Below, piece after piece: positions 5,165-11,362 of a stretch of 32,927 nt of DNA (within the stretch, counting starts at the first letter, position 1; every line of letters begins with the position of its first letter). A program made the position numbers and the translations under genes. A model generated the notes under the pieces. That model was not told the DNA's origin. It was given only the letters and a program-made list of their open reading frames with translations, and searched no databases. The DNA comes from Candidatus Saccharimonadota bacterium (GTDB taxonomy: Bacteria; Patescibacteriota; Saccharimonadia; Saccharimonadales; JACQNP01): assembly GCA_020428005.1 (NCBI GenBank), contig JAGQNP010000007.1, positions 1-32,927 of the forward strand. Direction: 5' to 3'.

Positions 5165-5241
5165 GCACCCGTAGCTCAGCTGGATAGAGCGTTGGCTTGC
5201 GGAGCCAAAGGTCACAGGTTCGAATCCTGTCGGGTGTACCA
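5165..5241 (+). tRNA. tRNA-Arg(GCG), overlapped by the recombinase gene
   Basis: The 77-nt gene folds as a standard class I tRNA: acceptor GCACCCG/CGGGTGT, D-stem GCTC/GAGC, anticodon stem TTGGC/GCCAA with loop TTGCGGA, T-stem ACAGG/CCTGT, and an encoded CCA. The body resembles bacterial tRNA-Arg(ACG), but the first anticodon base is G, giving GCG for CGU/CGC codons. Its last 30 bases are shared with the antisense 3' end of the recombinase gene, so this is probably the integration site of the island. Confidence 0.95.
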
Positions 5242-6816
5242 GTCTTGAATCAATGCCTCGAAAGAGGCTTTTTTCATCTGTTCTGGCAAGGTTCTGACGC
5301 TTAATAAGCGTGATTCCATTTCTTGCTTTGATTCAATCACTGGTACAAGGTACTTAATTGGTTGAAACACTAGTTTTCCGTCTAAAAGCACTAGGTTCTC
5401 ACTCAAATCTATTAACACCTGTCGTTTTTTAGTATCATCGTCACTTTCAAAGTCTTCTTTTGCATACCGTGCAAAGTTAAACAGCTTATAGGTCGCATCT
5501 CTCCAGGATTTATTGCCAGACTCTTGCTCGTTAAACTGTTTACGTTGCATAAGAAGTCTATTCTCAAGTTTTTGATTCTCTTTATCAAAGAAATCTTCGT
5601 CACATCTACCTTGATATAACATTCTTTGCAGGTTTCTTATTTCATTCTCGGTTAAATCTATTGCTTTTGACTGACTCTCGAATATTGCCTGTTGCTTGCT
5701 TGATTCGTTTGCGTAGTATTGGTCTAAGTACTTAACTGCCAATTCGAAGAATTCAGGCATTATCGTGTACTTCTCTAACTCGATTCTTACCATTCTAGTT
5801 AATTCCTCTGGTTTTATTGTGTTTACTTGACTGCATTCGTAGTCTTTCTTGCGTCTAGTACAGTAACAGTATTCAAAATCTTGCTGGTTACCGTTCTTGT
5901 AATGTCTGGTTTTCTTGCTGTAAGTTACTAAACAATTACACTCACCACAATGAATTAAACCTCTGTATGGAAATGGATCTACTTCTATCTTGGTACTTGG
6001 ACGCTCCCTGTCTCTCTTATTGATTAGCTGTTGTGCGGTATCAAACTCAGCTTGTGTGACCATTTGTTCGTGTTTTCCCTCGTAGACTTTACCACCGTAA
6101 GTAAGCCAGCCTGCGTAAAATGGGTTTTGCAGCATAGCATACATTCCAGCTGTACTTAAAGATTTACCGCCTTTCTTACGTCTTTGTATGGTCTTTAGGG
6201 ATAGCTCTTTCTCGGCAATTCTTGCTAATTTGCTTACTGTGTATCTCTCAGAGAGGAACAAGTCCCAAACTTTTCTTACCAGTAACCATCTGTCAGGGTC
6301 TATTACTATGGTCTTTGTCTCACGATCGTTCATGTAGCCAATGGGTGGTACGCCAGGTAGCCAACCTTTCTCGGCTTTACTATGCATACCACGTCTAACA
6401 TTCTTCATAAGATCACGGATGAATTGATTTGACATGCCTGCTTCTACGCTAAATATCAAAGCGTTATCACTAGGTAGATAGCACCTATCGTGTGTCTGGA
6501 TGCTTAACATTTCCTCATCTTGCAATAGTTGCTGCAAAACACCACTTTCGGTCGGGTTTCTAGATAGTCTATTTAATTGCCAACATAATATACCGTTTGC
6601 TTTAGAAGATCGAATATCTTCGATTAGCTGAGTGAAAACTGGTCTAACAAAGGGTTTCTTAGCTGATTTTTCTTCTGTGTAAATATCTACTATGTCGAGT
6701 TTATTCTTAGCAGCAAAGTCTTTCATTGCGTCTACTTGATCTTTTATTGATTGCACCTGCTTGTCTTCATCTTCTGTTGACTTACGGGCATATAGTATGT
6801 ACTTGATTGTGCTCAT
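5212..6816 (-). CDS. Large serine recombinase (site-specific integrase)
   Basis: The 534-residue product catalyses DNA strand exchange through a 5'-phosphoserine intermediate. Its N-terminal resolvase domain starts [20 protein letters not shown] with catalytic Ser13, followed by NRLSR. A recombinase domain follows with [10 protein letters not shown], then a zinc ribbon (HCGEC, later CYC and C in KKDYEC) and a long coiled coil, as in large serine integrases. ATG 6816 is preferred over 6828 because GGAGAAAG sits just before it. The last codons (WYTRQDSNL) are encoded by the antisense strand of tRNA-Arg, so the gene's end depends on the integration junction. Its leader is strongly structured (see separate entry). 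Confidence 0.93.
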
Positions 6817-6832
6817 TTCTTTCTCCATTCAA

Positions 6833-6945
6833 AAAGGACGACTGGTTGTTGAAACATCCAGCAGCACAAAGCTACTTTCCGTACCAGCCGCCCTTTAAGA
6901 ACGGAATAAAAATACTCTGTGCTTGTTATTACTGAATGTTTCAAC
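6833..6945 (-). promoter_or_regulatory. Structured leader RNA of the recombinase gene
   Basis: On the minus strand, 6896-6883 pairs with 6846-6833 in a 14-bp stem with two G-U pairs, enclosing a 6-bp inner hairpin (AGTAGC/GCTGCT), and runs into TTTTT just before the ribosome site. This looks like an intrinsic terminator. A second perfect 10-bp pairing (6945-6936 with 6857-6848) interleaves with it, so the two must compete or form a pseudoknot. The first arm would be the transcript's own 5' end. A 43-codon frame starting TTG 6944 and ending in an ATGA overlap with the recombinase start crosses the leader, but its composition is unlike a protein. Confidence 0.5.
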
Positions 6946-6951
6946 TCCTTT

Positions 6952-6980
6952 ATTATATAACTTAGTATGCTAGTGTTAAA
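6952..6980 (-). promoter_or_regulatory. Promoter of the recombinase transcript
   Basis: On the minus strand TTTAAC (6980-6975), a 17-bp spacer and a consensus TATAAT (6957-6952) predict a start near 6945. Confidence 0.7.
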
Positions 6981-10315: not shown

Positions 10316-10372
10316 TTTTTAATATCCTGATAAAATATTCATAATGAATATAAAGCTTATGAAAGGTTGATA

Positions 10373-11362
10373 ATGGAAGCAATCTACACCCTACTGTCAT
10401 TTCTCGTTACTATACTGATAATTGCTGTATTTGTTGGACTAATAAAACCTAAATTATTCACTAAGTTTCTTAAAGAAAAAGCTACTAGAAAACACATAGC
10501 TATCTTTGGCTTCTCGGCTATATTTGGATTAGCTATCCTTGTTACTATCACTGAACCTCAAAGTGTTAAACAAGCACGAATAGACAGAGAAAATGCAGCT
10601 AAGATTGCTAAACTAGAGGAAGAGAATAGAAAGCAGCAAGAACAGTTAGCAAAAGAAGCTGCGGAAAAACAACAAGCTGAGCAACAACAAGTTCAAGAAC
10701 CCGAACCAGAACCTGACCCCCGCTACTATTGGCACGAAGTTATTCGTGTAGTTGATGGAGATACAGTAAAAGCTCGTGTAGATGGAAGAGAAGAGTCCAT
10801 ACGTATCATTGGTATTAACTCCCCTGAATCAACTACATCTACTGAATGCTTTGGAGCTGAAGCCAGTGCTAAGGCTAAAGAGTTCCTTGAAGGTAAGTGG
10901 ATTCAACTTGAAAAAGATGAATCACAAAGTGACAGAGATAAATATGGAAGACTCCTACGTTATATATGGTTTGATGAAGGCACAGACTTTGGTAGACGTA
11001 TGATTGAAGAGGGCTATGCTCATGAATATACCTATGACATTCCATATAACAAGCAGGCACAGTACAAAGAGACAGAAGAGTCATCTAAGAACGCTAGTAG
11101 AGGCTTATGGTCTCCAGATACATGTAGCGGACAAGCCCAAAAGCCTGCAGCAACTACAACACAATCCAATACGACGTATACAGCCCCTGCGCCAGCTCCC
11201 GCCCCTGCGCCCTCTTCTACGGGTTCTGGTGTAGTTAAAATGAGTACGACAGGAATATGTCATGCTCCAGGCACTACTTATTACGACAGAACCACTAATT
11301 ACACCGCATATTCAACCATAGATGCCTGTTTAGCTGCGGGTGGAAGGTTGCCTAAAAGATAG
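10373..11362 (+). CDS. Membrane-anchored SNase-type (thermonuclease) nuclease
   Basis: The 329-residue product has two N-terminal membrane helices (about 5-25 and 44-60), a Glu/Gln/Ala-rich coiled-coil linker (75-115), an SNase domain (about 120-250), a Pro/Ala-rich linker and a small C-terminal module with CHAPGTTYYDRTTNY and a second Cys. The SNase motifs VVDGDTVK, IRIIGINSPE and DKYGRLLRYIW hold the metal and catalytic Arg/Glu positions, though the Asp of VDTPE is Asn here. SNases cut DNA and RNA with Ca2+. The start is ATG 10373, with GAAAGG upstream. Placed outside the membrane, it could degrade host or environmental nucleic acid for salvage, or act as an effector (inference). Confidence 0.88.
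   Translation: MEAIYTLLSFLVTILIIAVFVGLIKPKLFTKFLKEKATRKHIAIFGFSAIFGLAILVTITEPQSVKQARIDRENAAKIAKLEEENRKQQEQLAKEAAEKQQAEQQQVQEPEPEPDPRYYWHEVIRVVDGDTVKARVDGREESIRIIGINSPESTTSTECFGAEASAKAKEFLEGKWIQLEKDESQSDRDKYGRLLRYIWFDEGTDFGRRMIEEGYAHEYTYDIPYNKQAQYKETEESSKNASRGLWSPDTCSGQAQKPAATTTQSNTTYTAPAPAPAPAPSSTGSGVVKMSTTGICHAPGTTYYDRTTNYTAYSTIDACLAAGGRLPKR

Follow-up and report, generated by a model that had tools for sequence, protein, structure and literature searches.

Upstream of a large serine recombinase gene on the minus strand of a Patescibacteria contig lies a leader of interleaved helices, and the question which it raises is whether these form a regulatory RNA and, if so, how such an RNA might govern the gene that follows. 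The window referred to throughout is the whole stretch of 32,927 nucleotides (nt) that was analysed, positions 1 to 32,927 of contig JAGQNP010000007.1, from the 1.05-Mb draft genome GCA_020428005.1 of a Candidatus Saccharimonadota bacterium. That the leader belongs to a conserved RNA family is, in our judgement, nearly certain. Comparison of the sequences further suggests that it is likely to act as an attenuator.

The window leader and its helices

The strong promoter which the first-pass annotation had placed ahead of the leader is present on the minus strand as TTAACA-16-TATAAT (6979..6952), matching 11 of the 12 consensus positions. The features of the leader and its surroundings, in which H1 to H5 denote the helices, are as follows.

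6974..6979, minus strand: -35 box TTAACA (promoter scan)
6952..6957, minus strand: -10 box TATAAT (promoter scan), with 6 nt between the end of the box and H1
6931..6945, minus strand: 5' arm of H1, GUUGAAACAUUCAGU (covariation); predicted 5' end of the transcript, start ~6945
6914..6923, minus strand: 5' arm of H3, AGCACAGAGU (fold and covariation)
6906..6913, minus strand: U-rich joining strand 5' of H4, AUUUUUAU (sequence)
6901..6905, minus strand: 5' arm of H4, UCCGU (partner-swap test)
6898..6904, minus strand: 5' arm of H5, CCGUUCU, an alternative hairpin that excludes H2 and H4
6888..6894, minus strand: 3' arm of H5, AGGGCGG, its bases common to the 5' arm of H2
6883..6896, minus strand: 5' arm of H2, AAAGGGCGGCUGGU, in the apical loop
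6878..6882, minus strand: 3' arm of H4, ACGGA, pairing with 6905-6901
6863..6872, minus strand: 3' arm of H3, GCUUUGUGCU, pairing with 6923-6914
6848..6862, minus strand: 3' arm of H1, GCUGGAUGUUUCAAC, pairing with 6945-6931
6833..6846, minus strand: 3' arm of H2, ACCAGUCGUCCUUU, pairing with 6896-6883
6831..6835, minus strand: U-tract UUUUU (sequence)
6823..6826, minus strand: ribosome site GGAG (sequence), serving ATG 6816
5212..6816, minus strand: large serine recombinase (Pfam Resolvase and Recombinase); longest open reading frame from 6828, start placed by the ribosome site
5165..5241, plus strand: tRNA-Arg(GCG), overlapping the recombinase gene's 3' end in antisense; presumed site of integration

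The 14-base-pair (bp) stem with G-U pairs, ending in TTTTT ahead of the ribosome site, which had been described earlier corresponds to H2, in which AAAGGGCGGCTGGT (6896-6883) pairs with ACCAGTCGTCCTTT (6846-6833); two of its pairs are G-U, and the U-tract TTTTT 6835-6831 contains its final three U. A second, perfect 10-bp pairing interleaved with the first had also been claimed. It exists (6945-6936 with 6857-6848) and proves to be part of a longer helix, H1, of 15 bp including G-U pairs (6945-6931 / 6862-6848). H3 and H4 are additional to these two stems. The joining strand 5' of H4 is U-rich in many members, and four of its bases are paired in the fold of the window member. Taken together the 132-nt stretch folds at -44.6 kcal/mol as against -26.0 kcal/mol for shuffled sequence (z -5.4), a value equalled by 0 of 200 shuffles. 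ATG 6816 is the likely start codon of the window recombinase, since GGAG 6826-6823 comes after the alternative ATG 6828.

Conservation and distribution of the leader

Recombinases related to that of the window occur, at E 1e-60 or better, in 68 of the 392 genomes of the class. Among the best 30 places, whose upstream regions were taken, the leader layout is seen in L002 and 12 others and was not found upstream in L006-L009, L013-L015, L022 and L025. Covariance model R1, built from eight leaders and run on the 392 class genomes (E 0.01 or better), returned 26 places, eight of them training members, and 25 lie directly 5' of a serine recombinase. Models R2 (from 27 members) and R3 (from 65 rows) were each run on 379 genomes of the phylum. 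R2 gave 26 places in 25 genomes; 17 of its 19 new loci are upstream of a serine recombinase (16 recognised by BLAST and L079 by Pfam), the others being L081 and L084. R3 gave 41 places in 39 genomes: 34 of them immediately precede a serine recombinase, another six precede other first genes, and the last (L257) falls within a coding sequence. Ten downstream proteins were examined with Pfam: all have the Resolvase domain and eight the Recombinase domain also, that of L079 falling slightly below the cut-off. The model matches at L059, L060, L081, L084, L257 and L264 were judged non-member or unclear, L059 looking like a chance match.

From 74 matches 71 distinct cores were obtained and, after L187 was dropped (its anchor being lost), 70 leaders; 61 of these could be parsed for spacings, nine remaining unparsed, and 67 were used for the -10 count, three having no upstream sequence. 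The model alignments include the training members by construction, and alignment A9 also includes the second match of L066. In an alignment of eight leaders made on sequence only, 91.7% of cells are paired and 20 of the 42 pairs show two-sided change, as against 1-5 in slid controls. In the alignment of 65 rows each of the 29 nested pairs shows changes on both sides, with 92.4% of cells paired (51.9% in shuffles) and 714 two-sided cells (213.9 in shuffles), although this alignment was fitted to the nested helices and so leans towards structure. H2 stands outside the fit: 84.6% of its cells are paired as against 72.3% in shuffles, its two-sided cells number 118 as against 46.5, and its covariation is 0.339 as against 0.174, no shuffle reaching 0.339. 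A G-U pair in the core of H2 is retained in 42 of 61 rows. Over the 70 leaders the H2 core cells comprise 695 Watson-Crick, 78 G-U, 4 A-C and 4 other combinations, and the disparity between G-U and A-C argues for selection at the level of the RNA strand. The first-pass annotation would have been contradicted by homologous leaders in which both stems are broken without compensation; the outcome was the opposite, homologous leaders keeping both stems through compensatory change.

All 67 leaders with upstream sequence have a -10-like hexamer 5-14 nt before H1, as against a mean of 27.1 and a maximum of 38 in shuffles. The hexamer reads exactly TATAAT in 43 of these leaders, and its end is 5-6 nt from the first base of H1 in 59. 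Because of this spacing the RNA probably starts at H1. The -35 box is weakly kept (4-5 of 6 positions in 23 of 44, about 22% in random sequence). In the 61 parsed leaders H1 has a median length of 14 bp. H1 and H2 adjoin with no linker in 46 and with a linker of 1 nt in 11; 34 have a 1-nt step between H2 and H4, and 48 have a loop of 7-8 nt before H2. Following H2 there are on average 5.1 U per 8 nt, the background being 2.0 (n = 70).

A strict descriptor which specifies no sequence, just a pair of perfect helices that abut (H2 following H1 at 0-2 nt; score 48), is found in 43 of 168 recombinase upstream regions; the antisense strand yields 1 of 168 and shuffles 0 of 168. In named genomes R2 matches at E 0.1 or better occur in 27 of 80 recombinase loci, and all 27 are on the sense strand just 5' of the recombinase match. 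The titles of these carriers include Parcubacteria, Falkowbacteria, Magasanikbacteria, Berkelbacteria, Uhrbacteria, Pacebacteria and Saccharibacteria; no model match was found among the named loci whose titles give a phylum other than Patescibacteria. A looser two-helix descriptor, as distinct from the model, flags possible leaders upstream of recombinases in L186 (Bacteroidetes metagenome-assembled genome UBA6221) and L218 (Mucilaginibacter). Viral-contig recombinase loci gave an R2 match in 2 of 60. The leader precedes the recombinase on the IMG/VR contigs L086 (3871-3999) and L088 (3845-3969), and some carriers may therefore be phages. At the gathering score Rfam 15 recognised only tRNA in the window and in 14 member loci; its best sub-threshold match to the leader, a microRNA model (E 0.037), was taken as chance. 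Differently arranged crossing inverted repeats, perhaps another switch design, are found before the recombinases of L178 and L180, which lie beside tRNA-Tyr.

Alternative states of the leader and rival explanations

The earlier suggestion of a switch or pseudoknot stands in that a conserved structured leader has the layout of a pseudoknot and terminator. It probably does not stand in casting H1 and H2 as competitors. H5 is what conflicts with H2, and the linker between H1 and H2 is only 0-1 nt in 57 of 61 leaders; H1 and H2 probably coexist, judging from these arrangements, with H5 as the competitor of H2. The 5' arm of H2 opens with a GGGCGG-like core, and the strand just 5' of this has two possible partners: the core itself (giving H5) or, for its first bases, the strand 3' of the H2 arm (giving H4). 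H4 is compatible with H2 whereas H5, whose 3' arm is common to H2 in most members, excludes both. When partners were swapped among leaders, H4 scored -5.90 kcal/mol with its own partner and -2.90 kcal/mol with those of others (n = 70, p 1.5e-10), and own also differed from swapped for H5 (p 2.5e-5); on this test H4 is well supported and H5 moderately so. H5 reaches -5 kcal/mol or lower in 58 of 70 leaders, and in 38 of 70 it is better than shuffled versions of itself (p<0.05). The window RNA, when cut early in the 3' arm of H4, folds into H5, this short piece being no more stable than shuffles. The state with H2 in a pseudoknot beats that without H2 in 64 of 70 leaders under a penalty of +7 kcal/mol, and in 55 of 70 under +10. 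Taken as a plain hairpin, H2 wins in 8 of 70. These energy sums and the choice between H5 and H4 suggest that the terminator is completed inside the pseudoknot, with H5 as a brake. Two marks of an attenuator are thus found, a GC-rich helix (H2) running into a U-tract before the gene, the tracts being short in some members, and a mutually exclusive alternative helix, which is H5 in most members.

Our favoured reading, held with somewhat more confidence than doubt, is that the leader is a default-off attenuator in which H2 and H4 form a pseudoknotted terminator opposed by the local hairpin H5. It would belong to a new family of cis-acting RNAs on tRNA-integrated Patescibacteria islands. Transcription would begin at the first base of H1, as the spacing from the -10 box implies, and in the emerging RNA the local hairpin H5 would form first, to be followed by H3 and H1. 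The 3' arm of H2 would then emerge beside the base of H1 and pair, from its free end, with the apical loop. This pairing would displace H5 and permit H4 to close. In the resulting pseudoknot of H1, H3, H4 and H2 the last helix would enter the U-tract, and transcription would by default stop there. Were H5 to persist, presumably through a signal, a bound factor or a fast polymerase, there would be readthrough into the recombinase or other first gene.

Several observations weigh against this reading. Many related recombinases are leaderless, as the counts for the strict descriptor (43/168 loci) and for R2 (27/80 named, 2/60 viral) indicate, and among the best 30 places those nearest to the window protein by bit score, L006-L009, are without a leader. 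In 12 of 70 leaders H5 falls short of -5 kcal/mol, and the longest run of U is three or fewer in 19 of 70. The energies given for the pseudoknot state were obtained by summation, and the penalty in them was assumed. H2 slid by +3 columns still pairs 85.4% of cells, though its covariation is then only 0.141 as against 0.339. The lengths of H1 and of H3 plus H4 are uncorrelated (rho -0.12, p 0.36), which leaves the fold-back geometry required by the pseudoknot with no independent support.

The pseudoknot might instead act post-transcriptionally, by affecting access of the ribosome or by shielding a buried 5' end from decay, with no termination involved. The predicted start of the RNA within the junction of H1 and H2 would suit this, as would the few nucleotides that separate the 3' arm of H2 from the ribosome site in some members; the distance from H2 to the start codon, however, varies widely (up to about 50 nt), and U-rich tracts are kept 3' of H2 in most members. 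We consider this rather improbable. We would give still less weight to an attenuator set by an antisense or other trans-acting RNA binding to the leader, comparable to plasmid copy control. Retention of structure while most of the sequence drifts, and the presence of two leaders on some islands, are consistent with the idea, but the promoter scan, made for the window only, gave no plus-strand site at 6830-6960. Just as improbable, in our estimation, is that the terminated RNA of about 115 nt is itself the product, acting in trans, for example with the recombinase. In its favour are a promoter of its own, at a constant position, and an end resembling a terminator; control in cis, on the other hand, better fits a leader that also heads operons with a non-recombinase first gene.

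That the repeats serve at the DNA level, as attachment or operator sites, or that a leader peptide is involved, is highly improbable. The repeats are indeed long, but the excess of G-U over A-C cells in H2 indicates that it is the RNA strand which is selected. Frames of at least 25 codons show a mild excess (38 of 70 leaders, as against 32% of shuffles). The coupled frame from TTG 6944 proposed in the first-pass annotation does exist, but its ribosome-like site, AAGGAG (6950-6945), is upstream of the predicted transcript start near 6945, and this leaves it no usable ribosome site. Least probable of all is a guide RNA which, like the bridge RNA of IS110, chooses the integration site. This would accord with a structured RNA 5' of a recombinase and with islands at varied tRNA genes; against it, nearly the whole RNA is paired, and the longest word shared with the leader's own attachment region averages 7.60 nt as compared with 7.56 nt for other loci (n = 35, p 0.47).

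Islands, other first genes and related systems

Recombinase-associated leaders are mostly found on islands where the recombinase gene ends inside a tRNA gene. In the window it ends inside tRNA-Arg(GCG) on the opposite strand, with an overlap at 5212-5241. A second copy of the 3' end of this tRNA was not found in the window, and the draft genome holds only partial, weaker matches to the tRNA stretch. Of recombinase loci in which the C-terminus is seen, 80 of 102 end inside, or no more than 60 nt from, an antisense tRNA gene, and 13 kinds of tRNA are represented. The large serine recombinases of L145-L223 and the window form a clade, their genes terminating in antisense orientation within or next to tRNA genes of many kinds, even though integration at tRNA genes is usually credited to tyrosine integrases (PMC4383910). 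Some 3.5 kb past the leader the window specifies a staphylococcal-nuclease-like protein (10367-11362) which matches phage nuclease families.

The range of the leader is wider than originally proposed, as other operons on the recombinase islands, predicted from gene order, are also headed by it. The six R3 places not directly before a recombinase each have a recombinase gene or recombinase leader no more than about 7 kb away. In L267 and L268 the leader is followed on the same strand by the gene for a membrane-type protein of 139 amino acids and then by the recombinase gene. In L269 (2935-9443) it stands at the head of a series of genes on one strand, two of them for DNA methylases, of which the recombinase gene is the last. 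In L270 (1635-6065) the genes headed by the leader are a Type III pair, methyltransferase and restriction enzyme (Pfam, PADLOC), and a -10-like TAGAAT lies six bases before H1; no leader was detected for the recombinase gene of L270. A second leader, divergent in L271, precedes a 57-amino-acid frame and a helix-turn-helix gene; another precedes a small membrane protein in L266 (= L066). In L272 (4304-9720), from a separate scan of 40 genomes, a second leader heads a gene for a membrane protein of 193 amino acids and a Lamassu/ABC-three-component-like operon (Pfam, PADLOC). With such first genes among its clients the leader looks like an island-wide control element, the recombinase being the main client. 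A member-like leader also precedes a 152-amino-acid membrane-type protein in L062 (1501-1636; L233 5596-5731), where it may be a relic or have another use; no recombinase was found in the listed stretch of the L062 contig.

Pseudoknotted riboswitches with terminator platforms are known in the preQ1, fluoride and SAM-II classes. Like these, the present family combines a 5' leader, a pseudoknot, an alternative pairing and a U-tract; unlike them, it has the pseudoknot helix itself as the terminator stem, no Rfam match and no known ligand, and the genes it heads are not metabolic ones but recombinases and island cargo. The rep genes of plasmids pT181 and pIP501 are regulated by antisense-controlled attenuators, which likewise lie in the leader of a mobile element and combine a terminator with a pre-empting hairpin; here, by contrast, the window scan shows no antisense promoter and the pseudoknot has abutting helices. 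In repZ of ColIb-P9 a short pseudoknot aids translation following translation of a leader peptide. There too a GGCG-type apical loop pairs with a downstream strand ahead of the gene, but the helix here is of 11-14 bp, there is a U-tract, and no conserved peptide was found. The resemblance to the IS110 bridge RNA lies in a structured RNA beside a recombinase gene; the recombinase is of another class and no match to target DNA is seen here. In the available portions of the literature covered (mostly without subscription papers and preprints, and including PMC12884075) we found no description of this leader family, nor of the control of integration together with defence genes on Patescibacteria mobile islands.

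It is conceivable, though doubtful, that the pseudoknot as terminator furnishes a phylum-wide switch on tRNA-integrated islands, coordinating the integrase with anti-phage cargo (restriction-modification, Lamassu-like) in response to a single common signal, possibly the entry of the island or the state of the host. Island control becomes testable with an RNA family that covaries, has a single transcript start and a single architecture, and comes with linked genes; the leader also offers a handle for finding Patescibacteria islands. If the attenuator reading is true, it would extend the range of known leader designs by a terminator consisting of a pseudoknot. The position of the leader before integrating enzymes and some defence genes points to a shared on/off control of the islands.
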